Shown here piece after piece: positions 3,148 through 24,527 of a stretch of 64,000 nucleotides of DNA (position 1 is the stretch's first letter; each line of letters opens with the position of its first letter). Below the pieces are notes generated by a model. That model saw only the letters and a program-made list of their open reading frames with translations. It made no database searches and was not told the DNA's origin. Both the position numbers and the translations under genes were made by a program. This DNA comes from Microbacterium sp. LWH13-1.2. Lineage in GTDB: Bacteria; Actinomycetota; Actinomycetes; Actinomycetales; Microbacteriaceae. The stretch spans positions 620,001-684,000 of the forward strand of contig NZ_CP151635.1 of assembly GCF_038397735.1 (NCBI RefSeq), in the 5' to 3' direction.

Positions 3148-3173
3148 CGACTCCTCGGTATCCGATCGGCTTT

Positions 3174-3195
3174 ACTGACCGGTCGTTAGGTAATT
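3174..3195. promoter_or_regulatory. PaaR-type operator upstream of paaA
   Basis: A 22-bp site starts ACTGACCG and has a degenerate opposite arm AGGTAATT. It matches 14 of the 16 fixed positions of the PaaR consensus I recall for Corynebacterium glutamicum (ACTnACCG, nnCGnn, CGGTnAGT). It lies just upstream of paaA and shares CTGACCG followed by G or A and TC with sites at 14255 and 24262. The consensus is from memory, not searched. Confidence 0.72.
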
Positions 3196-5933: not shown

Positions 5934-5968
5934 GGCAGGCGATCCACCTCCGATCGGAGCACCTCAGC
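5929..5968. terminator. Inverted repeat holding both stop codons of recQ and paaK
   Basis: The arms GCTGAGG (5929-5935) and CCTCAGC (5962-5968) are perfectly complementary, and each contains the TGA stop of one convergent gene. A second palindrome, CTCCGATCGGAG, lies in the loop. There is no T-run, so terminator activity is likely but not shown. Confidence 0.5.
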
Positions 5969-7295
5969 GCAGGTCGTACACGCGCTTGTACTTGCCCTCG
6001 CTGCGGGGCAGCGTGCCGGGCTCCTCGACCTTGACGTCGACGCTCGTGCCGATGTGCATCTTGATCCGGTGGTGGAGCACCGCGGCCGCGGCATCGCACT
6101 CCTCGGCACTCAACGACGGGTGCCGCTCGATGCGCACGGTCATGGTGTCGAGCTGCGCGACGTGGTGCAGCTCGAGCACGAAGTGCGGCGTCAGCGTCTC
6201 GATCCCCATCACGAGCTCCTCGATCTGCGTGGGGAACAGGTTCACGCCGCGCAGGATGATCATGTCGTCGTTGCGTCCGGTGATCTTCTCCATGCGCCGC
6301 AGAGCCGGGTAGGTCGTGCCGGGAAGAAGTCGCGTCAGATCGCGTGTGCGGTATCGGATGACAGGGAACGCCTCCTTGGTGAGAGACGTGAACACGAGTT
6401 CGCCCAGCGCTCCGTCCGGCAGTCGATCGCCCGTGTCGCCGTCGATGATCTCGGGCAGGAAGTGGTCCTCCCAGATGTGCGGCCCGTCTTTCGTGAGCAC
6501 GCTCTCGCTTGCGACACCTGGTCCCATGACCTCGCTGAGCCCGTAGATGTCGACCGCGTCGATGTTCAGTCGTCGCTCGATCTCCCGCCGCATCTCGTTC
6601 GTCCAGGGCTCTGCGCCGAGCACCGCCACTCGCAGCGATGTCTTCGTCGGATCGATCCCCGCCGTCTCCATGGCATCCGCGATCGTGAGCAGGTAGCTGG
6701 GGGTGCAGAGGATCGCGTCCGGCTCGAAATCGGCGATCAGCTGCACCTGCCGCGCGGTCTGTCCTCCCGACACGGGGATCACCGTGGCGCCGAGCCGCTC
6801 GATGCCCGCATGCGCACCGAGGCCGCCGGTGAAGAGTCCGTAGCCGTAGGCGTTGTGGACCTTCATCCCCGCGCGGATGCCGGCCGCGTGCAGCGACCTC
6901 GCGATCAGATCGCTCCATCGGTCGAGGTCGCCCTCGGTGTAGCCGACGACGGTCGGACGCCCCGTCGTGCCGGAGGACGCGTGGATGCGACGGACGTCGG
7001 GCATGGGAACGGCGAACATCCCGAACGGGTAGCTCTCGCGCAGATCGGCCTTGGTGGTGAAGGGCAGCTTCTGCACGTCGTCGAGCGTGCGGATGTCGTC
7101 GGGGTGCACGCCGTGCTCATCGAACTTGCGGCGATAGACCGGCACATTCGCGTACGCATGGTGCACCGTCCACTGCAGACGCTCCAGCTGCAGGCGGGCG
7201 AGCGCCTCGGGTGCGTGCAGCTCCGGCTCGGTTCCGATCTCAGCACGGTCATCGATGTCGGTGCGGTGTTCGGTCTCGGTGCTGTGTGAGGTCAT
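5964..7295 (-). CDS. paaK: Phenylacetate-CoA ligase
   Basis: This enzyme activates phenylacetate with ATP and CoA to phenylacetyl-CoA, the entry step of the paa pathway. It has 443 aa and is an ANL-superfamily adenylating enzyme. Visible motifs are the phosphate-loop HASSGTTGRPTVVGYT, GYGLFTGGLGAHAG, AEPW, YGLSE (adenine-binding), YRTRDL, and the hinge and C-terminal lysine region GRNDDMIILRGVNLFP and SEGKYKRV. ATG is preceded by AAGGAG with 6-7 base spacing. It is transcribed divergently from an aldehyde dehydrogenase. I see no clear PaaR operator in the gap between them. Confidence 0.95.
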   Translation of the reverse strand: MTSHSTETEHRTDIDDRAEIGTEPELHAPEALARLQLERLQWTVHHAYANVPVYRRKFDEHGVHPDDIRTLDDVQKLPFTTKADLRESYPFGMFAVPMPDVRRIHASSGTTGRPTVVGYTEGDLDRWSDLIARSLHAAGIRAGMKVHNAYGYGLFTGGLGAHAGIERLGATVIPVSGGQTARQVQLIADFEPDAILCTPSYLLTIADAMETAGIDPTKTSLRVAVLGAEPWTNEMRREIERRLNIDAVDIYGLSEVMGPGVASESVLTKDGPHIWEDHFLPEIIDGDTGDRLPDGALGELVFTSLTKEAFPVIRYRTRDLTRLLPGTTYPALRRMEKITGRNDDMIILRGVNLFPTQIEELVMGIETLTPHFVLELHHVAQLDTMTVRIERHPSLSAEECDAAAAVLHHRIKMHIGTSVDVKVEEPGTLPRSEGKYKRVYDLR

Positions 7296-7479
7296 AGTCG
7301 ACTCCTTCGTCGCAGGGGGGCGTATTCCATCAGATCGCGGATCTCGAGGGCTCGATCTGCCCGAGGCGTACGAACCTGTGCAGAGTGTGCACGATGGATC
7401 CTCGGGTCTGTACCGGCCGGCGTCCGCGCTCGTAGGCTCCGGATACCGGACGAAGGAGTCCGCCATCAAGGAGGAAGCT

Positions 7480-8977: not shown

Positions 8978-9370
8978 TCACCCCGCCTGCGAACGGTTCG
9001 TCGTGAGCGAGCGGCCACGGACCTCGGCGACGACATCGCCCGACTCATCGGTCACGGTCACGTCGTAGAGCCCGTTCCGGCCGCTGACGACCCGGCGAAC
9101 GGCGCGTGCCGTGAGCCGCTGCCCCGCAGTCGTCGACTTCAGGAACGTGATGTCGGCGCCACCGGCGACGGTGACCCGCTCGTCTTCATTGCAGGCGATC
9201 GCGAAAGCGGTGTCTGCGAGAGTGAAGACCAGTCCGCCGTGCGTGATCGCGAAGCCGTTCAGCATGTCCTCTCGCACCGTCATGGACACCACGGCCTCTC
9301 CCGGTGCATCGAGTTCGACGACCATGCCGAGCATCGCCGACGCCGCATCGCGCTGCATCATCGGCCTCAT
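8978..9370 (-). CDS. paaI: PaaI hotdog thioesterase
   Basis: This is a 130-aa hotdog-fold acyl-CoA thioesterase of the PaaI family, which hydrolyses stalled ring-hydroxylated phenylacetyl-CoA intermediates and frees CoA. The family helix HGGLVFTLADTAFAIACN is present, with the usual hydrophobic strand afterwards. The ATG overlaps the paaZ stop as ATGA. It is the last gene of paaJ-paaF/G-paaH-paaZ-paaI and is followed by a strong hairpin. Confidence 0.93.
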   Translation of the reverse strand: MRPMMQRDAASAMLGMVVELDAPGEAVVSMTVREDMLNGFAITHGGLVFTLADTAFAIACNEDERVTVAGGADITFLKSTTAGQRLTARAVRRVVSGRNGLYDVTVTDESGDVVAEVRGRSLTTNRSQAG

Positions 9371-11448
9371 GCGGCGACGACCTCGGACGCCGGCTCCTTG
9401 TTGACGAGGGTGAGCACGTCGTACGTCGCCACGAGCTCGTCGCTCTGGTTGCGGATCACGGCATCCCAGCGCACCTCGCCGTACTCGTCGGTCTCGCGCG
9501 GGGTGATCTGCTTGGCGGTGAGCTCGACCCGGATCGTGTCGCCGGGGGACACCGGCGTGATGAAGCGCAGGTTCTCCAGCCCGTAGTTCGCGAGCACGGG
9601 CCCTGGTTCCGGGTCGACGAAGAGACCGGCGGCCCACGAGACGAGCAGGTAGCCGTGCGCCACGCGTCCGGGGAAGAACGGGTTCGCCGCGGCGGCCGTC
9701 TCGTCCATGTGCGCATAGAAGGTGTCACCCGTGAAGTGGGCGAATGTCTCGATGTCGGCAAGCGTCACCTCTCGCGAAGCAGAGACGATCTGGTCGCCGA
9801 TGCGGAGCTCGGCGAGCGACTTGCGGAACGGATGCCGTCCGTCGCTGTGGGCGGCTGCCCCCGCATGCCACACCCCGGTCAGCGCCGTGAGCATCTCGGG
9901 CGAACCCTGCACGGCGGTGCGCTGCATGTGGTGGAGCACCGCACGGATGCCGCCGAGCTCCTCGCCGCCTCCGGCACGACCGGGGCCGCCGTGCACGAGG
10001 TTCGGCAGCGGCGAGCCGTGCCCGGTCGACGACCGTGCGTCGTCGCGGTCGAGCAGCAGCATCCGGCCGTTGAACGGCGCGATGCGCGCGGCGAGATCCA
10101 CAGCCTGCACCGGGTCGTGCGTCGCGATGCTGGTGACGAGTGAGCCGCCGCCTCGGGCGACGAGCGCGGCCGCGTCGGCGGTGGTGTCATAGGTGAGCAG
10201 CGACGACACAGGACCGAAGGCCTCGATCGAGTGCGCTGCGTCTGTCTGCGAGTCGTCGAAGCGCAGCAGCAGAGGCGAGACGAACGCGCCCTCGGGAGCG
10301 AGGCCCGTGGCGCTGTCGGTCAGGCGCACCTCGGGAGCATCCGTCGTTCCGACGACGATCCGTCCTCCTGCCTCCTGCAGCCTGCCCACCTGTCGCAGCA
10401 CCTCGTCGCGCTGTGCGGTCGACGCGAGAGGGCCCATGGTGACACCCTCCGCGCGTGGGTCGCCCAGCACGGTCTTGTCGGCGATGCGCGCCCGCACAGC
10501 GGCGATCACCGCATCCGCAGACCCGGTGGGCACGATCGCGCGACGGATGGCCGTGCACTTCTGACCGGCTTTGGTCGTCATCTCGGTGACGAGCTGGCGC
10601 ACATACGCGTCGAACTCGGGGGTGCCCTCGACAGCGTCGGTGCCGAGCACCGACGCGTTGATCGAGTCGGTCTCGGCGGTGAATCGCACGCCGCCCGTCT
10701 GCACCGCAGGGTGGGCCTTGAGGCTCTCCGCCGTCGACGCGCTTCCGGTGAAGCCGACGATGTCTCCCAGTCGGAGGTTCTCGAAGAGGTCGGGAACGCT
10801 GCCGCTGACGAGCTGGAGCGATCCGTCGGGCAGCAGACCGGACTCGACCAGGATGCGCACCATCGCCTCGGCGAGGTAGCCCGTGGGCGTCGCGGGCTTC
10901 ACGACGGTCGGCATGCCGGCGAGGAACGCCGGTGCGAACTTCTCGAGCGAGCCCCAGACCGGGAAGTTGAAGGCGTTGATCTGCACGGCGACGCCGGGAA
11001 GCGTCGTGTAGACGTGGCGCCCGAGGAAGGACCCGTCCTTCGAGAGCGGCTCGACAGGACCGTCGACGTGCACGCGGCTGTTCGGCAGCTCACGTCGGCC
11101 CTTGCCGGAGTAGGAGAAGAGCACCCCGATGCCGCCGTCGATGTCGACCCACGAATCGTTCTTCGTCGCCCCGGTGCGGGAGGACAGCGCATACAGCTCG
11201 TCCTTGCGCTCGGTCAGGGCGAGGGCGAACTGCTTGAGCAGCACGGCCCGCTGATGGAACGTGAGCGCACCGACGCTCTTCTGCCCCACTGAGCGAGCGT
11301 GCTCCAGCGCCCCCGCGAGATCGAGGCCCTCGGTGGAGACGAGGGTGACGACATCGCCGGTCGACGCGTCGCGGACCTCGGTGGAACGTTCAGGCGACGA
11401 CGGCGTCCACCACTCGCCCTGGACGTAACTCGGCAGATACTCGGTCAT
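9367..11448 (-). CDS. paaZ: PaaZ, bifunctional oxepin-CoA hydrolase / semialdehyde dehydrogenase
   Basis: PaaZ opens the oxepin-CoA ring and then oxidises the resulting semialdehyde to 3-oxo-5,6-dehydrosuberyl-CoA. The 693 aa split into an N-terminal aldehyde dehydrogenase domain (to about 525; nucleophile Cys298 in GQKCTAIRR, FTGSAST NAD loop) and a C-terminal MaoC-like hydratase domain (about 550-693; FAHFTGDTFYAHMD and FPGRVAHGYLL hydratase motifs). Both halves look complete. ATGA overlaps join it to paaH and paaI. Confidence 0.95.
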   Translation of the reverse strand: MTEYLPSYVQGEWWTPSSPERSTEVRDASTGDVVTLVSTEGLDLAGALEHARSVGQKSVGALTFHQRAVLLKQFALALTERKDELYALSSRTGATKNDSWVDIDGGIGVLFSYSGKGRRELPNSRVHVDGPVEPLSKDGSFLGRHVYTTLPGVAVQINAFNFPVWGSLEKFAPAFLAGMPTVVKPATPTGYLAEAMVRILVESGLLPDGSLQLVSGSVPDLFENLRLGDIVGFTGSASTAESLKAHPAVQTGGVRFTAETDSINASVLGTDAVEGTPEFDAYVRQLVTEMTTKAGQKCTAIRRAIVPTGSADAVIAAVRARIADKTVLGDPRAEGVTMGPLASTAQRDEVLRQVGRLQEAGGRIVVGTTDAPEVRLTDSATGLAPEGAFVSPLLLRFDDSQTDAAHSIEAFGPVSSLLTYDTTADAAALVARGGGSLVTSIATHDPVQAVDLAARIAPFNGRMLLLDRDDARSSTGHGSPLPNLVHGGPGRAGGGEELGGIRAVLHHMQRTAVQGSPEMLTALTGVWHAGAAAHSDGRHPFRKSLAELRIGDQIVSASREVTLADIETFAHFTGDTFYAHMDETAAAANPFFPGRVAHGYLLVSWAAGLFVDPEPGPVLANYGLENLRFITPVSPGDTIRVELTAKQITPRETDEYGEVRWDAVIRNQSDELVATYDVLTLVNKEPASEVVAA

Positions 11449-12311
11449 CTCTCCTCATTCCATGCGTAGAACCCTTCGCCGCTCTTGCGGCCGAGCTTTC
11501 CTTCGGCGACCATCCGTCGCAGCAGATCCGGCGGGGCGAACCGCGCGCCGAGCGTGCGCTCCAGCTCTTCGGCGATGCCCAGGCGCACATCCAGACCGAC
11601 CACGTCGGTCGTGCGCAGCGGGCCCACCGGATGCCGGTATCCCAGAGTCATGGCCGCATCGATGTCGGCGGCTGACGCGACCCCCTCTTCGAGCATCCGG
11701 ATCGCTTCCAGGCCGAGCATCACGCCGAGTCGAGACGATGCGAACCCGGGGGAGTCGCGGACGACGATCGGCGTCTTGCCCAGGGCGGTCACCCAACCCG
11801 TCGCGCTCTCGACGATCGCTTCATCGGTCGCCGCGCCGCGCACGATCTCGACGAGCGCCGATGCGGGCACGGGGTTGAAGAAATGAAGACCGAGGAACCG
11901 CTCGGGGCGCAGGCGACCCGCAGCCAGGTCATCGATCGAGATCGACGAGGTGTTGCTGGCCAGCGTCGCGCGCTCGGGCAGGGCCGCCTCGACGCGCGCG
12001 AGTGCATCATCCTTGAGAGCACGGTCCTCGGGCACCGCCTCGATCGCGAGGTCGACCACGGTGAAGGCTGCGAGATCGTCGCCCGTCATGAGGCGGCCGG
12101 CGAGCTCCGCTTCGTCCAGGGAGGAATCGCGTTCGACGGATCGGCGGATGCTGTCGCCGATGCGGGCGCGCGCCGCGTCAGCGCTCGCCGCGTCGCGCTC
12201 GACCACGGCGACCCGCGAGCCAGCGAGCAGGAACGCATGCGCGATGCCGGCCCCCATGCGCCCGCCGCCCAGCACGCCGACTCTGCGCGGTGCCTTCTCG
12301 GTGTCGCTCAT
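11445..12311 (-). CDS. paaH: 3-hydroxyacyl-CoA dehydrogenase of the phenylacetate pathway
   Basis: This NAD-dependent enzyme oxidises 3-hydroxyadipyl-CoA to 3-oxoadipyl-CoA. It has 288 aa: a Rossmann fold with GGGRMGAGIA at the N-terminus, the SNTSS segment, the catalytic HFFNP motif, and the C-terminal helical domain with GYRHPVGPLRTTDVVGLD. Length fits a stand-alone single-domain HAD enzyme. The ATG lies in an ATGA overlap with the upstream hydratase gene, and the stop overlaps paaZ by four bases. Confidence 0.93.
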   Translation of the reverse strand: MSDTEKAPRRVGVLGGGRMGAGIAHAFLLAGSRVAVVERDAASADAARARIGDSIRRSVERDSSLDEAELAGRLMTGDDLAAFTVVDLAIEAVPEDRALKDDALARVEAALPERATLASNTSSISIDDLAAGRLRPERFLGLHFFNPVPASALVEIVRGAATDEAIVESATGWVTALGKTPIVVRDSPGFASSRLGVMLGLEAIRMLEEGVASAADIDAAMTLGYRHPVGPLRTTDVVGLDVRLGIAEELERTLGARFAPPDLLRRMVAEGKLGRKSGEGFYAWNEER

Positions 12312-13039
12312 CGGCTCTTCCTCTCCAGGAACGCGGTCATACGGCGGTGCTTCTCGGGCGACTCGAAGAGCTCGGCCTGCAGCTCGAGCTCGATCGCCGG
12401 GTGCTGCGCTCGCGGAGTGCGCAGCGCGCTCTTCGTGTACTGCGTCGCCAGCGGATCGTTCGCCGCGATCCGGTCGACGATCCCGTGCGCGGCCGCGAGC
12501 AGTTCCTCGGCCGGATGCAGTGACGAGACCAGCCCCCAGCGCAGCGCCTCCTCGGCATCGAGCGCTCGCCCGGTGAGCAGCAGCTCGCTCGCGCGGGCGT
12601 CGCCGACGATCTCGGGAAGTCGCCAGGTCGCACCGGCCGCCGCGATGATGCCGAGACCGGTCTCGGGGTTGCCGATGCGCAGGGACGGAGCCGCGATGCG
12701 GATGTCCGCGGCGTAGGCGAGCTCGGCCCCGCCGCCGAGAGCGTAGCCGTCGATCGCCGCGATCACCGGCATCGGGAGCTCGTGGATGCGGATGAACGCG
12801 GTCGCGTTGATGCCTCGCCTGGCGTCGTCCGCGGTGCGATCGCGCAGCTGGGCGATGTCCGCACCGGCGGCGAAGACGCCGCCCGACCCCGTGAGGATCA
12901 GCGTGCGCGGAGCCTCTTCGAGCATCGCGCACAGCTCGTGCAGCGCGTCGACCATCGCCTGGTCGATGGCATTGCGCTTCTCGGGGCGGTCGAGCGTGGC
13001 GACGACGCGATCGTCTCGCTCCTCGATGTGCAGGGTCAC
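12308..13039 (-). CDS. Enoyl-CoA hydratase/isomerase (PaaF or PaaG)
   Basis: This is a 243-aa crotonase-fold protein. The oxyanion-hole segment GVFAAGADI and the helix DGYALGGGAELAYAADIRIA are clear, and ETGLGIIAAAG carries the second acidic residue region. In the pathway PaaF hydrates 2,3-dehydroadipyl-CoA and PaaG isomerises the epoxide to oxepin-CoA. I cannot decide between them by eye, and only one such gene is in the visible cluster. The GTG start lies in a GTGA overlap with paaJ; ATGA overlaps paaH. Confidence 0.9.
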   Translation of the reverse strand: MTLHIEERDDRVVATLDRPEKRNAIDQAMVDALHELCAMLEEAPRTLILTGSGGVFAAGADIAQLRDRTADDARRGINATAFIRIHELPMPVIAAIDGYALGGGAELAYAADIRIAAPSLRIGNPETGLGIIAAAGATWRLPEIVGDARASELLLTGRALDAEEALRWGLVSSLHPAEELLAAAHGIVDRIAANDPLATQYTKSALRTPRAQHPAIELELQAELFESPEKHRRMTAFLERKSR

Positions 13040-14223
13040 GTCAGACGCTCCACGATCATGGCCGTGCCCTGCCCGACGCCGACGCACATCGTGGCCAGTC
13101 CGTAGCGTGCGTTCTCGCGCTCGAGTCGACCGAGCAGTGTCACGATCAGACGAGACCCGCTGGATCCGAGCGGATGGCCGAGCGCGATGGCTCCGCCGTC
13201 GGCATTCACGATCGCCGGGTCGAGCCCGAGTCGGCGGATGCAGGCGAGGGACTGCGACGCGAACGCTTCGTTCAGCTCGACCGCTCCGAGGTCGCTCACC
13301 TGCAGTCCCGCCTTCGCGAGCGCCTTCTGCGTGGCCGGCACCGGACCGAGTCCCATGATCTCGGGAGCGAGTGCGGCTGTCGCGGACGCGACGATCCGCG
13401 CGCGCGGACGCAGGCCGTGCCGCGCGACGGCATCCGCGCTCGCCACGACGATCGCGGAGGCTCCGTCGTTCAGCGAGCTGGAGTTGCCAGCCGTGACGAC
13501 CTCGCCGCCCGCAACCACGGCGCGCAGCCTCGCGAGCGCGTCGAGGGTGGTGTCCCGACGCGGTCCCTCGTCGGTGTCGACGATTCCGCGGCCCGTCTCG
13601 ACTCCGACGATCTCGGAGGCTAATCGTCCTGCGTCGATCGCCGCGATGGCCCGCCGATGGCTCTGCAGCGCGAAGGCGTCGGCGTCCGTCCGGCTGATGG
13701 CGTCGACGCGGGCGACCTCCTCCGCAGTCTCCGGCATCGAGAACGTCGCCTTGTCGCGCTCGCTCATCCGAGGGTTCGTGAAGCGCCAGCCGATGGAGGT
13801 GTCGAAGGCCGCGCCGGGCTTTGCCCACGCACGCTCGGGCTTCGCCTGCACCCAGGGCGCTCTGGTCATGGACTCGACGCCGCCGGCGACTATGAGGTCG
13901 GCGTCTCCGGCGCGCACGGCGTTCGCGGCGAGGGCGATGGCCGACATCCCCGAAGCGCAGAGCCGGTTGACGGTCAAGCCGGGGATCGAATCGGGGAGGC
14001 CCGCGAGCAGCACGGCCATGCGTGCGACGTTGCGGTTGTCCTCACCCGCCTGGTTCGCGGCTCCGAGGATCACCTCGTCGATCTCCTCCAGGGGCACCGT
14101 GGATCTGCGGACCGTCTCGCCCACCACGAGGGCGGCGAGATCGTCGGGGCGGACGGACGCGAGTGTGCCTCCGTAGCGGCCGACGGGGGTGCGGACGCCA
14201 TCGACGAGATAGGCCTCGGACAT
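13036..14223 (-). CDS. paaJ: Thiolase, 3-oxoadipyl-CoA / 3-oxo-5,6-dehydrosuberyl-CoA type
   Basis: This thiolase cleaves the beta-keto intermediates of the pathway with CoA, giving acetyl-CoA and finally succinyl-CoA. It has 395 aa, with nucleophile Cys89 (NRLCASGMSA), GGVESMTRAP, NEAFASQ, GHPLGSSGSR and a C-terminal MCVGVGQG bearing the second cysteine. I chose the ATG that has AGAGG six bases upstream; another ATG two codons earlier directly abuts that site. It is the first gene of its operon, with a PaaR-type operator 32-53 bases upstream. Confidence 0.94.
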   Translation of the reverse strand: MSEAYLVDGVRTPVGRYGGTLASVRPDDLAALVVGETVRRSTVPLEEIDEVILGAANQAGEDNRNVARMAVLLAGLPDSIPGLTVNRLCASGMSAIALAANAVRAGDADLIVAGGVESMTRAPWVQAKPERAWAKPGAAFDTSIGWRFTNPRMSERDKATFSMPETAEEVARVDAISRTDADAFALQSHRRAIAAIDAGRLASEIVGVETGRGIVDTDEGPRRDTTLDALARLRAVVAGGEVVTAGNSSSLNDGASAIVVASADAVARHGLRPRARIVASATAALAPEIMGLGPVPATQKALAKAGLQVSDLGAVELNEAFASQSLACIRRLGLDPAIVNADGGAIALGHPLGSSGSRLIVTLLGRLERENARYGLATMCVGVGQGTAMIVERLT

Positions 14224-14254: not shown

Positions 14255-14276
14255 AATTTCAGACCGATCGGTCAGG
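14255..14276. promoter_or_regulatory. PaaR-type operator between paaJ and paaR
   Basis: On the minus strand the site reads CCTGACCGATCGGTCTG onward. The left half matches the recalled PaaR consensus well; overall 12 of 16 fixed positions match. It contains the perfect 12-bp palindrome GACCGATCGGTC (14262-14273). It lies between the divergent paaJ and paaR starts and so could control both. Confidence 0.7.
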
Positions 14277-14334
14277 AATACGATCTCAGATCGGTGGACG
14301 AATGGCAACTCATGGGGAATGACAGACTGGGCCC

Positions 14335-14946
14335 ATGGCGCAGCTCGGATTCGACGCGCCGGCCCCCAAGCGAGGCCGGCCAGGTTATGACCGCGAGCAG
14401 GTGCTCGCGGTCGCCGTGAAGGTGTTCAACGAGCAGGGCTACGACGCGACCAGCGTCGCCGACCTCAGCGCCACCCTCGGGCTCACCAAGTCCGCGCTCT
14501 ACCATCACTTCGAATCCAAATCGGCGATCCTCGAGCTCGCGCTGACCGATGCCCTCGACGCTCTCGAGGCCGTCGTGGACGACGCGACGGCACGGCATCC
14601 TCTGGCCTCCGACCGCCTGCGGTCGATCATCCGCGGGGCGGTGCGCGTGCTCACCGAGAAGCTCCCGTCGGTCACGCTGCTGCTGCGGGTCCGGGGAAAT
14701 GGCGATGTCGAGACGGCAGCCCTCGTGCGCCGGCGCGCATTCGACCAGCGGGTCACCGCGATCGTCACCGAGGCTCAGGCCGAGGGGCTGATCCGCGACG
14801 ACGTCGATGCCGCGGTCGCGACCAGGCTGATCTTCGGCATGATCAACTCTGTCGTCGAGTGGTATCGGCCCGGCGGGCCGGTCGACCCCGACGAGCTGGG
14901 CGAGGACATCCTGCGGGTGAGCCTGGACGGTCTGCAGTCGCGCTGA
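14335..14946 (+). CDS. paaR: TetR-family repressor, probable PaaR
   Basis: The product has 203 aa: an N-terminal TetR helix-turn-helix (about residues 20-65, ending SALYHHFESKSAIL) and a C-terminal ligand domain of the fatty-acid/aromatic-acyl-CoA type. By analogy to other PaaR proteins it should bind phenylacetyl-CoA and then release the paa operators. It is divergent from paaJ across a short gap that carries a TetR-style palindrome, and two related sites lie at 3174 and 24262. The assignment rests on position and operators as well as the fold. Confidence 0.85.
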   Translation: MAQLGFDAPAPKRGRPGYDREQVLAVAVKVFNEQGYDATSVADLSATLGLTKSALYHHFESKSAILELALTDALDALEAVVDDATARHPLASDRLRSIIRGAVRVLTEKLPSVTLLLRVRGNGDVETAALVRRRAFDQRVTAIVTEAQAEGLIRDDVDAAVATRLIFGMINSVVEWYRPGGPVDPDELGEDILRVSLDGLQSR

Positions 14947-15009: not shown

Positions 15010-16014
15010 ATGGACGATCGCACACCCGAGGCGGTCGCTGGCAGAGTCGTCGTCGACTGCGGTGCGGTGCCCTCCGCCGAGCGGTTCGACATGTGGACCG
15101 ATGCCGTGAACCGCAGCTTCGTTCCTTTGCGCGCCTGGTCGACCGACGGTGCCGTGCGTTCGGGGTTCGAAGGCAAGCTGGTCGCTCAGCCCGTGGGTCC
15201 GCTGTCGGTCTCGAGCGTCGCGGGCTCCGCCGTGCGCGTGAGCCGGACGAGAGCGGAGATCGCCCGCGACGACCCCGGACACATCAAGCTGGGCGTGCAG
15301 CTGCGGGGGCGCAGCGTGATCGGTCAGGACGGTCGGGAAGCGATTCTGATGCCCGGTGACTTCGCCGTCTACGACACGACGCGGCCGTACGCGCTCGACT
15401 TCGACGGCCCGTTCCGGATGCTCGTGGTGATGTTCCCCCTCGAGACGCTGCGCATAGATCGGGCGCGGCTTCGCGCGCTCACCGCCTCGCGATTCTCCGG
15501 ACGTGAGGGCGTCGGAGCGATCGCCTCGTCGATGCTGCGAGCCTATGACGCGACGCTCGAGGACGGCACGCTGCAGAATCGGATGCCGCTGTCCGATGCC
15601 GTTCTCGACCTGCTCACCGCCGCGCTGGGCGAGCGGCTCGAACTGGAGCTGGACGGCGGCGAGGAGGTCGGCCGCCGCGCTCTGCTCACGCGGATCGAGC
15701 TGTACATCGCCGCGCATCTCGGCGACGCGGAGCTCACCGTCACGCAGATCGCGGTCGCCCACCACATCTCGGTGCGGTACCTGCAGAAGCTGTTCGAGGG
15801 TAAGAACGACACCGTCAGCGCCTGGATCAGGCACCGCCGGCTCGACGCCACGCGGCGCGACCTGAGCAACCCGACGCAGAGCGGACAGCAGATCTCGGCG
15901 ATCGGCGCGCGCTGGGGCTTCACGGACGCGACCGCCTTCACCCGCGCGTTCCGCACCCGGTTCGGCATCACTCCCAGCGAGTACCGCGCGCAGACCCTCA
16001 GCGTCGCTCACTGA
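15010..16014 (+). CDS. AraC-family regulator, FeaR-like
   Basis: The product has 334 aa. The N-terminal two thirds is an AraC-binding-like sensor domain of the FeaR/NphR type (LRGRSVIGQDGREAILMPGDF, then DTTRPYALDFDGPFRMLVVMFP). The last 100 residues are a double helix-turn-helix AraC domain ending GFTDATAFTRAFRTRFGITPSEYR. FeaR itself activates phenylethylamine oxidation in enterobacteria, but the ligand here is unknown. It probably controls the GMC oxidoreductase 185 bases downstream. A paralogue of the same architecture is at 37696-38652. Confidence 0.88.
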   Translation: MDDRTPEAVAGRVVVDCGAVPSAERFDMWTDAVNRSFVPLRAWSTDGAVRSGFEGKLVAQPVGPLSVSSVAGSAVRVSRTRAEIARDDPGHIKLGVQLRGRSVIGQDGREAILMPGDFAVYDTTRPYALDFDGPFRMLVVMFPLETLRIDRARLRALTASRFSGREGVGAIASSMLRAYDATLEDGTLQNRMPLSDAVLDLLTAALGERLELELDGGEEVGRRALLTRIELYIAAHLGDAELTVTQIAVAHHISVRYLQKLFEGKNDTVSAWIRHRRLDATRRDLSNPTQSGQQISAIGARWGFTDATAFTRAFRTRFGITPSEYRAQTLSVAH

Positions 16015-16198
16015 GCTCTCGCGCGCTGAGTCGTCGCTCACGAGCCGCCCTCCACTGCGCGCCGGCTCCGCAGTCCGCCGAATATCCGTGCGCATCCGGC
16101 ATATCGCTGTTCGTCGGTGGCCGGTCGGGAACGCCCGGCGCGAGTGATCCTGATCGGAGAGCAGACGACGACGTCTGTCGTTCAGAGAGGAACGAGTG

Positions 16199-17731
16199 AT
16201 GACCGAGCTCACAGAGGGTGCCGACTACATCGTGATCGGCGCGGGGTCCGCAGGCAGTGCGATCGCACGTCGACTCGTCGATGCGGGGCACAGCGTGCAC
16301 GTGATCGAAGCAGGCTCCGTCGACAGCGATCCGAACATCCACTCGCCGCAGGGGTGGCCGGGGCTGCTGATGTCGCCGAACGACTGGGCGGTCATGACGA
16401 CACCGCAGGAGCACCTCGGCGGGCGGGTCCTCTACTGGCCTCGGGGCAAGACGCTCGGCGGATCGAGCTCTCTGAACGGCATGATCTACATGCGCGGTGA
16501 CCGTCGTGACTACGACGGCTGGGCGGCGCAGGGCGCGAGCGGCTGGTCATGGGAGGACGTCCTCCCGTACTTCCGCCGATCGGAGGATCATGTCGACGGC
16601 GCCGACGAGTTCCATGGAGCCGGTGGTCCGCTGCCTGTGGAGCGGATCCCTGCAGACAAGCGGCATCCGCTCGCGGCGGCGTTCGTCGAGGCGTCGGTGG
16701 CGAGCGGCATCCCGCGCACCGAGGACTTCAACCGCGAGAGCCTCGACGGGGCCGGGTTCAACCACACGACGACCAAGGACGGCAGGCGGGCATCGGCGTG
16801 GCAGTCGTTCGTGGCGCCGATCCTGGGGCACGAGGCACTGGCCGTGACCCCGAACGCGCTGGTCGACAGGATTCTCGTCGAGGACGGCAGAGCGGTCGGC
16901 GTCGAGTACGAGGTCGACGGGGTCCGTCACCTCGCGAAAGCGCGGCGCGAGATCGTGCTGTCCGGCGGAGCGATAGGCTCGCCGGCCGTGCTGCTGCGCT
17001 CGGGCATCGGACCCCGGGGTGATCTCGAGCAGCTGGGAATCGAGGTCGTCGCCGACATCCCGGGCGTGGGGGAGAACCTCCACGACCACCTGCTCGTCAG
17101 CGTGCTGTACGACGCCCTCGACGCGGTGGCCCCGCCGCAGTGGAACCTGCTCGAGAGTCAGCTGTATGCCCGCTCGAGTGTCGTGGCCGGCGATGACGCT
17201 CCCGACCTGCAGCCGCTGTTCATCCATGTGCCGTATCCGACGGACGGCGGAGCCGCACCCGCGCAGGGGTACACGATCGCCGCCGGAATCGTCCGGCCCC
17301 ACTCGCGAGGCACTGTGCGATTGGCGGCTGCAGAGCCCTCGGTCGCGCCTCTCGTCGATCCGAACGTGTTCGCCGACGAGCGGGATCTCGAGGCGATGGT
17401 CGACGCGATCGAGTTGGTCCGCGCGATCGGCGGTCGCGACGAGTTCGCGCCCTTCCGGGCCTCCGAGTTCGCTCCGGGGGAGAACGTCACGACCCGCGAC
17501 GAGCTGCGCGATTTCGCCCGGCGCACCGTCGGGACCTATCACCACCAGGTCGGGACGTGCCGGATGGGGGTCGATGAGCTCGCGGTCGTCGACCCGCAGC
17601 TGCGGGTCAGGGGCATCGCCGGGCTCCGAGTGGCCGACGCGTCGGTGATGCCGTCCGTTCCGAGCGCGAACACGAACGCACCCTCGATCATGATCGGCGA
17701 GCGCGCGGCGGACCTGCTGCTTGCCGAGTAG
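16199..17731 (+). CDS. GMC-family FAD oxidoreductase
   Basis: This 510-aa flavoprotein is of the glucose-methanol-choline family, oxidising an alcohol. It has the N-terminal ADP-binding GAGSAGSAIARRL, the PRGKTLGGSSSLNGMIYMRG signature, the second GMC signature at GGAIGSPAVLLRSGIGP, and a C-terminal catalytic pair region with His448/His449 (TYHHQVGTCRMG) and PSANTNAPSIMIGERAA. The substrate cannot be told from sequence; choline dehydrogenase is only one option. ATG (or GTG three bases earlier) follows AGAGAGG. The stop is two bases from that of the convergent iclR-type gene. Confidence 0.88.
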   Translation: MTELTEGADYIVIGAGSAGSAIARRLVDAGHSVHVIEAGSVDSDPNIHSPQGWPGLLMSPNDWAVMTTPQEHLGGRVLYWPRGKTLGGSSSLNGMIYMRGDRRDYDGWAAQGASGWSWEDVLPYFRRSEDHVDGADEFHGAGGPLPVERIPADKRHPLAAAFVEASVASGIPRTEDFNRESLDGAGFNHTTTKDGRRASAWQSFVAPILGHEALAVTPNALVDRILVEDGRAVGVEYEVDGVRHLAKARREIVLSGGAIGSPAVLLRSGIGPRGDLEQLGIEVVADIPGVGENLHDHLLVSVLYDALDAVAPPQWNLLESQLYARSSVVAGDDAPDLQPLFIHVPYPTDGGAAPAQGYTIAAGIVRPHSRGTVRLAAAEPSVAPLVDPNVFADERDLEAMVDAIELVRAIGGRDEFAPFRASEFAPGENVTTRDELRDFARRTVGTYHHQVGTCRMGVDELAVVDPQLRVRGIAGLRVADASVMPSVPSANTNAPSIMIGERAADLLLAE

Positions 17732-17732
17732 G

Positions 17733-18500
17733 TCAGTCGTCCGCGGGGGCGACGCGCGGCGGCCATGACGTCGCGCCGAGCTCCCGCGAGATGTTCCGCG
17801 CGGTCTCTCGCAGCGCGTGGAGCACGGCATCCGAGGCGGGAGCGTGCGACGTCGGCATCACGACCGCGACCGCCGCGACGATGTCGTTCGAGGAGTCGGC
17901 CACGGGCGCCGCGATCGACGACTCGCCGAGCACGGCCTCGTCGACCTCGGTGGCGCTGCCGCGTTCGGCGATCACCGGCAGCTCCATGATCAGACGGGCG
18001 ACATCGGTGATGGTGTCTCCGGTGAGGCTGGGCAGCGGGCGCTCGAAGACCGTGCGCTGGAAGCCGAGATCGTGCGCGAGCAGAACCTTCCCCATCGCGG
18101 AGGCGTGAGCGGGGATGGCGACGCCGGTCTCGAGCATCTGCTGGCTGTCGTCGGGGCGTAGGTCGTGGTGGATGACGAGGACCTCATGGAAATGCGGCGC
18201 ACCGAGTCGCACGGGCAGGTTCGTCCGGCGCGCGAGCTCCTGCGTCCACCGCATGGCGCGCGCCCTGACATCGAGGGTGTCGAGGTACACGTTGCTCAGG
18301 CGCAGCAGCGTCGGGCCGAGCATGTAGCGCTGCCCTCCGCGCTCCTTCGCGACAAGTCCATGCTCGCGCAGGGACTTGACGATGCCGTGCACGGTCGACG
18401 GAGGGAGATTCAGTGCGAGAGCGAGATCGGTGATGCCGAGGTGACGCGCTCCCTGCAGCAGTTCGAGCACTTTGGCTGCGCGATCGATGGCCTGGATCAC
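17733..18500 (-). CDS. IclR-family regulator
   Basis: The product has 255 aa with an N-terminal winged helix (residues 1-65; LGITDLALALNLPPSTVHGIVKSL) and a C-terminal IclR effector domain (ASAMGKVLLA, ALGESSIAAPVADSSNDIVAAVAV-like region). The GTG start has GGAGG upstream. It is divergent from dhaK-dhaL-dhaM across a gap with a good promoter and two inverted repeats. It is therefore the likely regulator of the dihydroxyacetone kinase operon, in the manner of GylR-type IclR proteins of glycerol metabolism. Confidence 0.88.
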   Translation of the reverse strand: MIQAIDRAAKVLELLQGARHLGITDLALALNLPPSTVHGIVKSLREHGLVAKERGGQRYMLGPTLLRLSNVYLDTLDVRARAMRWTQELARRTNLPVRLGAPHFHEVLVIHHDLRPDDSQQMLETGVAIPAHASAMGKVLLAHDLGFQRTVFERPLPSLTGDTITDVARLIMELPVIAERGSATEVDEAVLGESSIAAPVADSSNDIVAAVAVVMPTSHAPASDAVLHALRETARNISRELGATSWPPRVAPADD

Positions 18501-18560
18501 AGCGGCTCCTCCCTCCGGTCGTCGTCGAGCCGGGCGGTCTCGTCGGCCGCCAGGTAGATC

Positions 18561-18624
18561 TTGACAACTCGACTGCGCCCGAGCATATTCGACATTGACG
18601 AACAACTTTCCAATATTGCGAAAG
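18561..18624 (+). promoter_or_regulatory. dhaK promoter with two candidate IclR operators
   Basis: TTGACA (18561-18566) and CATATT (18584-18589) are separated by 17 bases, a good sigma-70-type promoter. Just downstream are TTCG-N7-CGAA (18588-18602), which overlaps the -10, and CTTTC-N9-GAAAG (18606-18624), whose centre contains the palindrome CAATATTG. Both repeats sit where a repressor would block dhaK transcription. Confidence 0.6.
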
Positions 18625-18657
18625 ATCGCCACCGCAGAGATCAAGGGAGATCGAACG

Positions 18658-19646
<989 letters not shown>

Positions 19647-19650
<4 letters not shown>

Positions 19651-20312
19651 TGGCGGGCGTCGACACGGCAGCACTCATCGACTGGATGCACCGCTTCCGC
19701 GACGTGATCGCGGAGAAGCGCGGGTGGCTCACCGAACTCGACTCGGCGATCGGTGACGCCGATCACGGCGCGAACATGTCGAGAGGAATGGATGCGGTCG
19801 TCGCGAAGCTCGCCTCGGGAGCTCCGGACACAGTGGACGAGCTGCTCAAAGCGGTGGGCATGACACTGGTGAGCTCCGTCGGCGGCGCGAGCGGCCCGCT
19901 CTACGGAACGCTGTTCCTGCGCATGGGGATGGCCGCGGGGCCCCTGACCGAGCTCGACGCCTCGGCGCTCGCCGCCTCGATACGGGCCGGACTCGACGGG
20001 ATCGTCGCTCGCGGCAAGGCCGAGGCCGGAGACAAGACCATGTTCGACGCGATGGCTCCGGCGGTCGACGCTCTCGATGAGGCGCTCGCCGGTGGAGCAG
20101 ACCTCGGGGCGGCGACGGCGGCCGCGGCGACGGCTGCTGCTGCGGGCCGGGATGCCACCGAACCTCTCGTCGCCCGCAAGGGACGCGCGAGCTACCTGGG
20201 CGAGCGCAGTGCGGGGCACCTCGACCCGGGCGCCGCATCGACCACGCTGCTGTTCGAGACGCTCGCGCAGACCACCGCGCAGAGTGCCTCACAGGCCGCG
20301 GAATCGTCCTGA
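19647..20312 (+). CDS. dhaL: DhaL, ADP-binding subunit of dihydroxyacetone kinase
   Basis: DhaL carries a tightly bound ADP that is phosphorylated by DhaM and then donates phosphate to dihydroxyacetone on DhaK. The product has 221 aa, with the Mg-ADP loop [15 protein letters not shown] (Asp37, Asp39, His40) and [12 protein letters not shown]. The C-terminus ends in [10 protein letters not shown]. The ATG lies in an ATGA overlap with dhaK and the stop shares one base with the dhaM ATG, so the three genes are translated as a unit. Confidence 0.94.
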
Positions 20313-22852
20313 TGATCGGTATCGTCGCCGTCTCCCACAGCGCTCGACTCGGGGAGGCGGCGCTGGAGCTCGCCCTGCAGATGGTTCAGGGCGGGGGAGT
20401 GCGCGTACAGGTCGCGGCCGGTGCGGGATCGGATGCCGACGGCACGCCCGTCCTCGGCACGGACGCGGTCGCAGTGGCCGCGGCGATCGACGACCTCGCG
20501 GCGGACTGCGACGGGGTGCTCGTGCTGATGGACCTGGGGTCTGCGGTGCTCAGCGCCGAGCTCGCGCTCGAGCTGCGGATGAGCGACGTGCCGGTGCGCC
20601 TGGCGCCAGCGCCCTTCGTGGAAGGACTGCTCGCGGCGGTCGTGTCGGCTGCGGCGGGAGGATCGCTCGACGTCGTCGCGCAGGAGGCCTCGGCCTCACT
20701 CGGGGCGAAGACCGGTCAGCTCGGCGACGCGAACGCCGGTGACGAGGATCACACTCCTTCTGCGCGCGGTGCCAGCGAGCACGGCACCGATGCATTCTCC
20801 GTCGAGTCGGGTGCGTCTGGCCGGCCGGGTGCCGTCGTGCGCGTGGTGACCGTGAGGAATCCCCTCGGCATCCACGCACGTCCGGCCGCGCTCATCGCCG
20901 AGACGTCGGCGGGCGCCGATGTGCGACTTCGCAAGCTGCCGGACGGACCCGATGCCGCCGCTGCGAGCCTCTCCCGACTTCTGATCCTCGGTGCTCGCCA
21001 GGGCGACGACGTCGAGCTGTCTGCGACCGGGGTCGGCGCAGACGGTGTCGTCGAGCGTCTCGCGGCTCTCTTCGACGACGGGTTCGGCGAGGGATCCACC
21101 GAGGTTCCGGAGTCTCCGGTGGCGGCAACGACGCCGTCGGTCGAGACGGAGACCCAGGCTTCATCGCCGATCGCGCCGGGAACCGTGCTGCGCGGGAGGG
21201 GAGTGAGCGGCGGACGGGTCGCGGCCCCGGCGGTGCTCCTCGCCGCTCCACTCGACGAGCCCGATGCGAGCGAGATCGTCGCGCCGGATGACCGTGAGAG
21301 CGAGGTGTCCGCGATCGAGTGGGCCGCTGTGGCGGTGGCCGATCAGCTGCGTGCGCGCACGTCGACCGCGACCGGGGAAGCGCGGGCGATCCTCGATGCG
21401 TCGCGTCTGCTCGCCTCCGACCCGGAGCTCGTGGCGGAGGCCTCGGCGCTCGTCCGGATCAAGGGGCGCACAGCGGCGCGCGCAGTGTGGGAGACCGCGG
21501 TCTCGCACGAGCAGGGCCTCGCGGCACTCGGCGGGCGGATGGCCGAGCGGGCGGCAGACATCCGCGACGTCCGTGATCGCATCATCGCGGAGATCCTCGA
21601 GGTCGACGTCCCCGGCGTCCCTGAGCGTGAGGAGCCGTTCGTGCTGGTGGCCGTCGATCTCGCCCCGGCTGACACCGCCGCCCTCGAGGGAGGCCGCTGC
21701 GTCGGGTTGGTGACCGAGCAGGGTGGTCCCACCTCGCACACCGCGATCATCGCGCGCTCTCTGGGAATACCTGCCGTGGTCGGGGTGGTCGGTGCGGCCG
21801 GGATCACCCCCGATGCCGTCGTGCTGGTCGACGGCGACCGTGGCACCGTGGAGGTCGAACCTGACCCGGCACGCGCCGAGGCGGCGAAGGGCGAAGCGGT
21901 CGTCGTGCCTTTCCACGGAGAGGGCATGCTCGCCGACGGGCACCGCATCCGTCTGCTCGCGAACGTCGGGGGAGCCGCCGAGGCGGTGACCGCCTCGGCC
22001 GCCGGAGCGGAGGGCATCGGGCTGTTCCGCACCGAGTTCTGCTTCCTCGACCGGGCCGATGCGCCATCGATCGATGAACAGGTGGCGGCCTACCGCGGTG
22101 TCCTCGCAGCGTTCCCCGGTCGTCGGGTCGTCGTGCGCACGCTCGATGCGGGCAGCGACAAGCCCCTGCCGTTCGCGAACGCGGATCACGAGGACAATCC
22201 CGCTCTGGGAGTTCGCGGCCTGCGCATCGCCCGACGGTCGCCCGCGCTGCTCGACGATCAGCTGCAGGCGCTGGCACGGGCAGCCGAGGCGGAATCGGCG
22301 ATCGTCGAGGTCATGGCGCCGATGGTGGCCACGGTCGATGAGGCGCGTGCCTTCGCCGAGAGCGCCCGTGCTGTCGGGCTCATGACGGTCGGCGTGATGA
22401 TCGAGACGCCCTCGGCGGCGCTGCTCGCCTCGGAGCTGCTCGAGGTCGTCGACTTCGTCAGTCTCGGCACCAACGACCTCGCCCAGTACACGCTGGCGGC
22501 GGATCGCCTGCTCGCCGAGCTCGGTGACCTGAACGATCCGTGGCAGCCTGCCGTCCTGCGCCTCATCGGAGCGGTCGGTGCAGCCGGGCGCACGTGGGAC
22601 CTTCCGGTCGGAGTGTGCGGCGAGGCCGCTGCGGACCCCGCGCTCGCAGCGGTGCTCGTCGGCCTCGGCGTCACCTCGCTCTCGATGACGCCGCGGGCGC
22701 TGGGTCGTGTGGCCGCAGCACTCGAGGCCGTCACCGACGCGCAGTGTCGGGCGGTGGCGGAGGCGGTGCTGAAGGCGGCGACCGCTGCGGACGCGCGCGC
22801 GGCGGCGGTCATGATCCTCGGATCCGAGAGCGTCGGCGGGCCGGTCGCGTGA
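20312..22852 (+). CDS. dhaM: DhaM-HPr-Enzyme I fusion phosphotransferase
   Basis: This phosphoryl carrier re-phosphorylates DhaL-ADP with PEP. The 846 aa hold three modules in series. The first is an EIIA-Man-like DhaM domain (1-130, phospho-His9 in AVSHSARLG). The second is an HPr domain (about 172-262, His188 in NPLGIHARPAA). The third is a full Enzyme I (about 285-846), with His476 in GGPTSHTAIIARS, the PEP-binding GLFRTEF and SLGTNDLAQY, and Cys769 in VGVCGEAAAD. E. coli DhaM has a truncated EI; here the PEP-binding half is complete, so the protein may work without general PTS enzymes. Confidence 0.93.
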   Translation: MIGIVAVSHSARLGEAALELALQMVQGGGVRVQVAAGAGSDADGTPVLGTDAVAVAAAIDDLAADCDGVLVLMDLGSAVLSAELALELRMSDVPVRLAPAPFVEGLLAAVVSAAAGGSLDVVAQEASASLGAKTGQLGDANAGDEDHTPSARGASEHGTDAFSVESGASGRPGAVVRVVTVRNPLGIHARPAALIAETSAGADVRLRKLPDGPDAAAASLSRLLILGARQGDDVELSATGVGADGVVERLAALFDDGFGEGSTEVPESPVAATTPSVETETQASSPIAPGTVLRGRGVSGGRVAAPAVLLAAPLDEPDASEIVAPDDRESEVSAIEWAAVAVADQLRARTSTATGEARAILDASRLLASDPELVAEASALVRIKGRTAARAVWETAVSHEQGLAALGGRMAERAADIRDVRDRIIAEILEVDVPGVPEREEPFVLVAVDLAPADTAALEGGRCVGLVTEQGGPTSHTAIIARSLGIPAVVGVVGAAGITPDAVVLVDGDRGTVEVEPDPARAEAAKGEAVVVPFHGEGMLADGHRIRLLANVGGAAEAVTASAAGAEGIGLFRTEFCFLDRADAPSIDEQVAAYRGVLAAFPGRRVVVRTLDAGSDKPLPFANADHEDNPALGVRGLRIARRSPALLDDQLQALARAAEAESAIVEVMAPMVATVDEARAFAESARAVGLMTVGVMIETPSAALLASELLEVVDFVSLGTNDLAQYTLAADRLLAELGDLNDPWQPAVLRLIGAVGAAGRTWDLPVGVCGEAAADPALAAVLVGLGVTSLSMTPRALGRVAAALEAVTDAQCRAVAEAVLKAATAADARAAAVMILGSESVGGPVA

Positions 22853-22889: not shown

Positions 22890-24209
22890 TCAGGCGTGCA
22901 GGTCGATGCCCTTCGTCTCCTTCACGATCGATACGGCGATGAGGGAGATCACCGCCGTGATGGCGATGTAGACGCCGATGGTCCACGCCGCCTGGAACTG
23001 GTTCATCAGAGCCTCCGCGATCATCGGTGCGAACGCTCCGCCGAGGATGGCACCGAGCGCGTATCCGATCGAGACGCCCGAGTAACGGACGTTGGCGGGG
23101 AACATCTCGGCGTAGAGGGCCGCCTGCGGACCGTACGAGAGTCCGAGGGCGAACGTCATGACGAACAGCGCGACGAAGTACCAGAGGATGTTCGCCGTGT
23201 CGATCAGGAACCACATCGGAACCGCCCAGAGCGCGAGCGCGACATACCCGATCTGGAAGGTGCGTACCCGACCGAGGCGATCGGAGAGGTGGCCGCCCCA
23301 CAGAGTGAAGATGAGCCATCCGAAGGATGCGAGGGTCGTGGCCAGCAGCACGGGAGGACGCTCCATGCCGAGGGCTGTGACGGCGTAGGTGGCGAAGAAC
23401 GCGATGAGCAGGTAGCCGGCGGCGTTGTTGCCGATGAAGATGAGTGCGGTGAGCACGACCTGCTTGGTGTTCTTTCGGAACAGACGCCCGAGCGGTGCCG
23501 ACGCCTCCTGCCGGCGACGGCGGAGATCCTCGAAGACCGGGCTCTCATCGACCGCGCGCCTGATCACGTAGCCGACGGCGATCAGCACGATCGAGAGCAG
23601 GAACGGGATGCGCCATCCCCAGGCGAGGAATGCTTCGGGTGACATCGAGCTCGTCAGCACCCAGAGCGTCGCTGTGGCGAGGATCATGCCGATCGGGACG
23701 CCGATCTGCGGGAACGCGCCGAAGAGCCCCCGACGGGTGGTCGGGGCGTGCTCGACGGCCATCAGTGCTGCCCCGCCCCATTCACCACCGGCCGAGAAGC
23801 CCTGCAGGATGCGGAGCACGATGAGCAGGATCGGCGCGGCGACGCCGATCGCCGCGTAGGTCGGAAGCAGGCCGATCAGGGAGGTGGAGAGCCCCATCAT
23901 CACGAGGGTGAACACCAGCATCCTCTTGCGACCCAGCTTGTCGCCCAGGTGCCCGGCGACGATGGCTCCGAGTGGACGGAAGAGGAAGGAGATCCCGATG
24001 GTGGCGAATGACAGGATCTGCGCGAAGCCCTTGTTCTCCTCGGCGATAGGGGCGAGGAACAACGGGGCGAGCACGAGGCCGGCGGCTTGCGCGTAGATGA
24101 AGAAGTCGTACCACTCGATCGAGGTGCCGACGAGAGTGCTGGCGAGAACCCGCCGTTCCTCTGCGGGCATCCGGGTGGTCGAGCTGCGTGCGGATACTGC
24201 TGACGTCAT
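22890..24209 (-). CDS. MFS transporter of the metabolite:H+ symporter type, PaaR-linked
   Basis: This 439-aa, 12-helix major facilitator has MHS-subfamily marks: IEWYDFFIYAQAAGLVLAPLF after a short cytoplasmic N-terminus, FRPLGAIVAGHLGDKLGRK between helices 2 and 3, and LQGFSAGGEWGGAALM. MHS members carry carboxylates such as shikimate, benzoate derivatives, citrate or proline. I chose the ATG with GGAG eight bases upstream; an upstream in-frame start would overlap the operator. The PaaR-type operator 52-74 bases upstream suggests uptake of phenylacetate or a related acid. Confidence 0.88.
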   Translation of the reverse strand: MTSAVSARSSTTRMPAEERRVLASTLVGTSIEWYDFFIYAQAAGLVLAPLFLAPIAEENKGFAQILSFATIGISFLFRPLGAIVAGHLGDKLGRKRMLVFTLVMMGLSTSLIGLLPTYAAIGVAAPILLIVLRILQGFSAGGEWGGAALMAVEHAPTTRRGLFGAFPQIGVPIGMILATATLWVLTSSMSPEAFLAWGWRIPFLLSIVLIAVGYVIRRAVDESPVFEDLRRRRQEASAPLGRLFRKNTKQVVLTALIFIGNNAAGYLLIAFFATYAVTALGMERPPVLLATTLASFGWLIFTLWGGHLSDRLGRVRTFQIGYVALALWAVPMWFLIDTANILWYFVALFVMTFALGLSYGPQAALYAEMFPANVRYSGVSIGYALGAILGGAFAPMIAEALMNQFQAAWTIGVYIAITAVISLIAVSIVKETKGIDLHA

Positions 24210-24261
24210 GCGAACTCCATTGTTCTGCGGTGGGGGAGAGCGACTAACCATCGCCCGGGTC

Positions 24262-24283
24262 ACTTACCGAATGATCGGTCAGT
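24262..24283. promoter_or_regulatory. PaaR-type operator in front of the MFS gene
   Basis: The left arm is ACTTACCG and the right arm CGGTCAGT, with 6 bases between. This matches 15 of 16 fixed positions of the recalled PaaR consensus, the best of the three sites in the window. On the minus strand it begins ACTGACCGATC, like the paaA site. It is 10 kb from the paa genes. Confidence 0.72.
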
Positions 24284-24527
24284 AAAGCGAGAGTAGCGCA
24301 CGCAGGAAGACAGTCCAAGACCCGGGACTCACGGCGGTTGTCCCGATTCTCGGCGCTGGGAGGTGAGATCTGTGGCCTGAGATGGGGATGTATGCAGTGT
24401 GCGGCATGTGATTGCTCACATTCTGATATCGACATGCATGCATCGCTCGTCAGGGCGATCGGAGCGCCCCTAGGCTCCTCGCAGGGGCATCGGATCTCGA
24501 TGTGAAAAGCCAAGCGGAGGGTGTGTC

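Follow-up and report, generated by a model that had tools for sequence, protein, structure and literature searches.

We consider it likely that the palindrome at positions 24264-24285 of the window is an operator of the TetR-family repressor PaaR, and that the MHS-like MFS transporter gene downstream of it is a regular member of the paa regulon, encoding a phenylacetate importer that phenylacetyl-CoA would release from repression. The window is the whole stretch of 64,000 nucleotides analysed (bases 620001-684000 of a single-contig 3.77-Mb genome; G+C 0.6855). PaaR-type operators are common to the transporter and the paa units, as seen in the sequence pattern, in a scan of the genome and with a matrix trained on paaA operators. 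The features on which the argument draws are given below, with operator scores counted out of 16 against the genus pattern TTACNNAMCGNNCGKTNNGTAA.

1023..1865, minus strand: paaC (PF05138; position)
1862..2170, minus strand: paaB, assigned by position and conservation (homologues directly beside paaA in relatives)
2167..3147, minus strand: paaA, phenylacetyl-CoA epoxidase subunit, first gene of the unit beginning paaABC (TIGR02156, 519.6 bits, cut-off 280)
3172..3193, minus strand: predicted PaaR-type operator upstream of paaA (16/16)
5964..7253, minus strand: paaK, phenylacetate-CoA ligase, source of the presumed inducer phenylacetyl-CoA; start estimated, within an ORF at 5964-7613 (TIGR02155, 657.8 bits, cut-off 646.3)
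9367..11448, minus strand: paaZ (TIGR02278, 1020.5 bits, cut-off 562.8)
11445..12302, minus strand: 3-hydroxyacyl-CoA dehydrogenase, paaH-like (matches over residues 215-495 of the ORF 11445-12932)
12308..13039, minus strand: enoyl-CoA hydratase, paaF-like (hydratase matches at about residues 265-505 of the ORF 12308-13828; the part that does not overlap paaJ)
13036..14223, minus strand: paaJ, 3-oxoadipyl-CoA thiolase (under the cut-off of the two best-matching models, NF006551 and TIGR02430, and over that of TIGR01930)
14257..14278, plus strand: predicted PaaR-type operator (14/16) in the paaJ-paaR intergenic region, from where it could act on both divergent units
14335..14946, plus strand: paaR, TetR-family repressor, divergent from the adjoining paaJ (PF00440 and PF17932)
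15010..16014, plus strand: FeaR-like AraC-family regulator, between paaR and the transporter (NF007243 FeaR, 160.8 bits, under the cut-off of 199)
16196..17731, plus strand: GMC oxidoreductase (PF00732 and PF05199)
17733..22852, strand not specified: IclR regulator, Dak1/Dak2 and a PTS EI-HPr-EIIA fusion, between paaR and the transporter (IclR, Dak1 and the PTS gene also in genome G001)
22890..24209, minus strand: MHS-like MFS transporter, 439 aa, proposed phenylacetate (arylacetate) importer; start ATG at 24209 (PF00083 and PF07690 above cut-off)
24264..24285, minus strand: predicted PaaR-type operator of the transporter, TTACTGACCGATCATTCGGTAA on the minus strand (15/16); 24262-24283 is the same site with the register shifted by 2 bp

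Judging from strand and spacing, paaJ would be the first gene of an operon running on to paaZ and paaK.

Predicted operators in the window and the genome

The preliminary description had reported three 22-bp sites with a shared core at 3174, 14255 and 24262, and their places and strands hold, the core CTGACCG[GA]TC being present at 3175 (+), 14266 (-) and 24273 (-). It had also placed the best match to a PaaR consensus at the transporter rather than at the paa genes. Scored against the presumed 22-bp consensus of C. glutamicum, ACTNACCGNNCGNNCGGTNAGT, the sites reach 15/16 at 24262, 14/16 at 3174 and 12/16 at 14255. Allowing up to three mismatches, this 22-mer has three matches in the window (24262 as the best, 3174 and an unrelated place at 16010) against 0.56 expected from shuffles; 14255 is not among these three. 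The 10-bp core was rejected as evidence on its own, as the window holds seven exact copies of it, and 32 at up to one mismatch against 23.3 expected. A looser pattern, shaped to fit two of the sites, was given no weight as proof either.

Comparison of the regions upstream of paaA and of the transporter across related genomes yields a genus-specific palindrome, TTACNNAMCGNNCGKTNNGTAA, whose axis is displaced by 2 bp relative to that of the presumed C. glutamicum consensus. In this register 3172-3193 matches at 16/16, 24264-24285 at 15/16 and 14257-14278 at 14/16, the last being a poor fit to the presumed C. glutamicum consensus and a good fit to the genus palindrome. Scanning the 3.77-Mb genome with TTACNNAMCGNNCGKTNNGTAA finds exactly three places at up to two mismatches, which are the three sites, and six more at three; as a control, the reversed pattern gave one forward and one reverse match. 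The pattern had been drawn by eye. Because transporter sites had contributed to it, we tested independence with a matrix trained solely on 13 distinct paaA operator sequences, all from other species of the genus, leaving the genome itself out. The top three places of the window under this matrix are 24264 (33.3 bits), 3172 (31.7 bits) and 14257 (25.2 bits), and the next non-overlapping place reaches 5.3 bits. On the shuffle expectation, the genome scan and the paaA-trained matrix, chance was rejected as the origin of the sites.

The ATG at 24209 is the start of the transporter gene and lies 54 bp from the operator; a GTG listed at 24263 is an unlikely start, which would touch the operator. An alignment of seven transporter upstream regions has the operator as its main conserved block, the other block being the region just before the ATG. 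A scan for sigma-70 promoters over 24180-24420 found none.

PMC9493321 describes TetR-type PaaR proteins of Burkholderia and Thermus that keep paa promoters repressed or bind operators, with phenylacetyl-CoA as the releasing effector. By analogy with such homologues, PaaR would here act as a repressor with phenylacetyl-CoA as its inducer. When substrate is lacking, PaaR would occupy all three sites: the one upstream of paaA, the one separating paaJ from paaR, and the one upstream of the transporter. Some phenylacetate would enter and be converted by PaaK to phenylacetyl-CoA, which would release PaaR, so that the transporter would be made together with the enzymes. The transporter would most likely import phenylacetate (in some genera perhaps 4-hydroxyphenylacetate) along with protons, and its induction would put positive feedback on uptake.

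Conservation of the operator across genomes

In a first set of 58 genomes, we counted an operator at 13/16 or more of the genus pattern and an orthologue at 68% identity or more. Loci were obtained for 30/35 paaA matches and 30/34 PaaR matches. An operator precedes the transporter orthologue in 9/9 loci of this set and none of the 21 paralogues fetched (52-58% identity). It is found in 26/30 upstream regions of paaA and in only 10/30 of paaR, and intragenic controls in the same 58 genomes had it in no case. Two of the nine orthologue loci (G057 and G039) belong to another family and have the transporter on a contig other than that of paaA and paaR. At both loci (L147 and L148), the PaaR-type site lies between the transporter and a divergently oriented IclR-type gene, and control of the transporter may be shared with this gene. 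In three genomes (G012, G019 and G028) a 52-58% paralogue adjoins paaR and is nonetheless without an operator, so nearness does not explain the site, and neighbourhood alone was rejected as its cause.

The same first set also allowed the pattern to be scanned through 35 genomes of the genus. At least one place at up to two mismatches occurs in 24/24 genomes with paaA and in 3/11 without it. The reversed control pattern gives up to three places per genome, and single two-mismatch places elsewhere can therefore be chance.

A second, named set came from a profile search of genome contigs with an alignment of eight orthologues, of which we used the best 80 of 588 confirmed relatives. It overlaps the first set, since L153 (Microbacterium hydrocarbonoxydans) and G014 are evidently one genome. 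The closest named relatives among these 80 are from Microbacterium and Agromyces, and the identity to the transporter is 62-87% for 38 closer loci and 42-59% for the other 42. With the paaA-trained matrix and a threshold above 99.9% of the null, an operator stands at 30/38 loci of at least 62% identity and at 1/42 below, among the best 80 of 588 relatives (Fisher P 1.4e-13, with loci treated as independent and related genomes included). By the 13/16 pattern count the figures for the same 80 are 27/38, leaving 11/38 closer loci without an operator, and 1/42 (Mobilicoccus). The eight of these 38 that lack an operator by the matrix are two Nonomuraea, Saccharomonospora, one of two Geodermatophilus, two of 14 Arthrobacter, Achromobacter and Paraburkholderia.

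Another 24 loci were newly fetched from the genus, and 23 of them have the operator; the exception is G165, and in G188 the best site is just 13/16 and at another distance. Footprinting across orthologues (9/9, 23/24 and, among the best 80 of 588, 30/38) and paralogues (0/21) thus gives strong support to the earlier proposal that the transporter belongs to the PaaR regulon.

Co-occurrence and gene order

Of 197 genomes of the genus, 38 have the transporter (E <=1e-170), 137 have paaA, and every transporter-bearing genome also carries paaA (P 1.6e-7, with genomes treated as independent). This overlap was read by eye from the paaA list; 24 of the 38 loci are the newly fetched ones, six had been obtained earlier and eight genomes are without loci. 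The remaining 99 of the 137 paaA-bearing genomes have no transporter at the threshold used, which indicates that the transporter is not indispensable for the pathway. In the named set, the flanking sequence obtained (up to 10 kb, less where a contig ended) contains paa genes at 13/38 closer loci against 0/42 of the others, among the best 80 of 588 relatives.

The preliminary description called the transporter distant from the paa genes, about 10 kb away. The gap is real in this genome, but relatives have the transporter beside paaR or paaJ, some of them inside the paa cluster. For example, the order in G104 is paaDCBA, an operator, paaK, paaZHFJ, two operators, the transporter reading away from paaJ, and paaR facing the transporter; G173 has the same order, with no paaJ detected. 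The transporter lies directly before paaJ-F-H-Z on the same strand in G002 and G014, and tail to tail with paaR in G024 and G016; in G020, its tail-to-tail partner is a fragment of paaR at the end of a contig. These positions, inside the cluster (G104, G173) or before paaJ (G002, G014), make the distance a local rearrangement. We infer that the order of the window could have arisen from that of G104 by inversion of the transporter-paaR pair followed by insertions. The stretch between paaR and the transporter carries IclR, Dak and PTS genes in both the window and G001, with the FeaR-like and GMC genes added in the window. In G165, the genus locus lacking an operator before the transporter, the gene lies about 2 kb downstream of paaD on the same strand, and may for this reason be read from the paaA operator.

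The paa cluster of G033 contains homologues of the FeaR-like regulator and the GMC oxidoreductase (window 15010-17731), a phenylacetaldehyde dehydrogenase that scores above the StyD cut-off, and PaaR-type sites. The regulator and the oxidoreductase may feed 2-phenylethanol or phenylethylamine into the pathway.

The transporter and its probable substrate

The transporter belongs to the MFS superfamily, with the Pfam models MFS_1 and Sugar_tr above their gathering scores (112.4 and 136.7 bits). Its score against TIGR00883 (metabolite/H+ symporter) is 400.2 bits, below the curated cut-off of 443.45, and we therefore call it MHS-like only. The shikimate transporter model reaches 312 bits, and the protein scores under the curated cut-off of every NCBIfam family among the matches listed. 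A search against solved structures returned eight distant MFS sequences and, matching only such distant relatives, is uninformative on substrate.

Co-regulation and gene neighbourhood suggest that the transporter probably brings phenylacetate into the cell, and the same two lines bear on both substrate and direction. The role of phenylacetate or arylacetate importer given in the preliminary description stands as the best inference from them, with phenylacetate as the simplest candidate substrate.

The transporter could also be a regulon member whose main substrate is another compound of this catabolism, such as 4-hydroxyphenylacetate, 2-phenylethylamine or another aromatic acid, either turned into phenylacetate or used alongside it, a reading that we regard as improbable. 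In its favor, hpaB lies directly upstream of the transporter in 3/38 closer loci among the best 80 of 588 relatives, all in Arthrobacter and each with a 14/16 site; one of these genes was tested and scores above the curated HpaB cut-off, and a copper amine oxidase gene and a FeaR-like gene are close to the hpaB-transporter locus. This arrangement suggests that the transporter at these loci takes a broader range of arylacetates or has switched substrate; a 4-hydroxyphenylacetate transporter would also fit. Further points on the same side are the FeaR-like and GMC genes beside paaR in the window, and those of Microbacterium hydrocarbonoxydans (L153), where a GMC homologue (44%) and a StyD-like gene (40%) are situated some 6 kb away from the transporter. 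In Achromobacter xylosoxidans (L182), a 64% identical transporter adjoins genes for maleylacetoacetate isomerase (maiA) and FAA hydrolase, at a locus without a PaaR-type site, which indicates that the transporter family is not tied to phenylacetate everywhere. Against another main substrate, the transporter sits inside the paa cluster in G002, G014, G104 and G173, and the stretches fetched from these four genomes hold no FeaR or GMC match, the GMC homologue of G014 lying outside its stretch. Additionally, known PaaR proteins have phenylacetyl-CoA as their inducer, and this compound signals the presence of phenylacetate itself.

A broader proposal can be put forward tentatively, and we hold it as possible while doubtful: the MHS-like group may be an actinobacterial arylacetate importer of a family other than PaaL, under PaaR control even away from the paa genes beside hpaB, where phenylacetyl-CoA would gate the uptake of 4-hydroxyphenylacetate. 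Among the best 80 of 588 relatives, the group is found in Microbacterium, Agromyces, Arthrobacter, Leucobacter, Brevibacterium, Cryobacterium, Nocardiopsis, Geodermatophilus and other genera.

Returning to phenylacetate as the compound carried, the opposite direction has little to commend it. An exporter of excess phenylacetate or of a dead-end product, made on induction, would show the same co-regulation, by which alone import and export are indistinguishable, and part of the phenylacetic acid can enter cells by diffusion. The nearest curated models are nevertheless those of symport or uptake (metabolite/H+ symporter, shikimate, glycine betaine/proline, tricarballylate), and the multidrug and efflux models among the matches listed score just 20-26 bits, so we judge export very unlikely.

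That the palindrome at 24264 serves another TetR-type regulator with a PaaR-like motif can practically be dismissed: TetR operators are often alike and 15 further stretches of the genome are related to PaaR at E <=0.001, but paaR is the only close PaaR-like gene in the genome (the next TetR relative by E-value is 36% identical over 97 residues), the paaA-trained matrix ranks 24264 top in the window, and the transporter co-occurs with paaA.

Comparison with known systems

Much like the TetR-type PaaR regulons of Corynebacterium glutamicum, Burkholderia cenocepacia and Thermus thermophilus, the system of the window has a TetR repressor gene beside the paa genes and palindromic operators before the paa units. 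What sets it apart is its operator, TTACNNAMCGNNCGKTNNGTAA, and probably a regulon that includes an MHS-like transporter. The best NCBIfam matches of this transporter are to the MHS family of MFS transporters (ShiA, ProP, TcuC). PaaL is of the sodium:solute symporter family.

PaaL is the characterised phenylacetate permease of Pseudomonas putida, and as an uptake gene of the same catabolic pathway it is comparable to the transporter described here; its expression is sigma-54 dependent in strain CA-3, going by the account in PMC3224230. The survey in PMC2653477 found paaL in P. putida and, as given there, in none of the other 102 genomes. Another parallel is CgR_0643 of C. glutamicum R, likewise a gene of an actinobacterial paa cluster, which has been put forward as a putative phenylacetate transporter (PMC8796525); the description given there comes without a PaaR operator.

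What is new is therefore the addition of a transporter to a known regulon, a modest novelty, since PaaR control and a putative phenylacetate transporter in the Corynebacterium paa cluster are already published. Within literature surveyed by title or abstract opening, with subscription journals mostly outside the survey, none assigns an MHS-type gene to phenylacetate uptake in Actinobacteria. As far as the literature seen goes, phenylacetate uptake outside Pseudomonas is a poorly assigned step of the pathway. In many Actinobacteria this step would be filled by one gene family preceded by a conserved PaaR operator. MFS genes that carry only general names from family models would also gain a function, and the genus pattern offers an improved operator model with which to look for PaaR targets in Microbacterium and related organisms.

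PaaR-type sites at other loci

PaaR-type sites were also seen before genes other than the transporter. In G034, a 15/16 site (L152, G034:C1:1015000-1025000, site 4822) precedes a gene for a family 5 solute-binding protein (PF00496), which is followed by two more ORFs on the same strand (308 and 313 aa); the three perhaps form an ABC transporter operon. This genome carries paaA, and its closest counterpart of the MHS-like gene is a paralogue at 53% identity; the candidate ABC transporter may replace the importer there. L150 (G010:C1:1997000-2013000, site 12408) holds a FeaR-like gene beside paaR, with a 14/16 site immediately preceding the homologous part of that gene. At L151 (G033:C41) a single genome carries a second paa cluster; this has a divergent PaaR of its own (49% identical), and its operators differ slightly in sequence.
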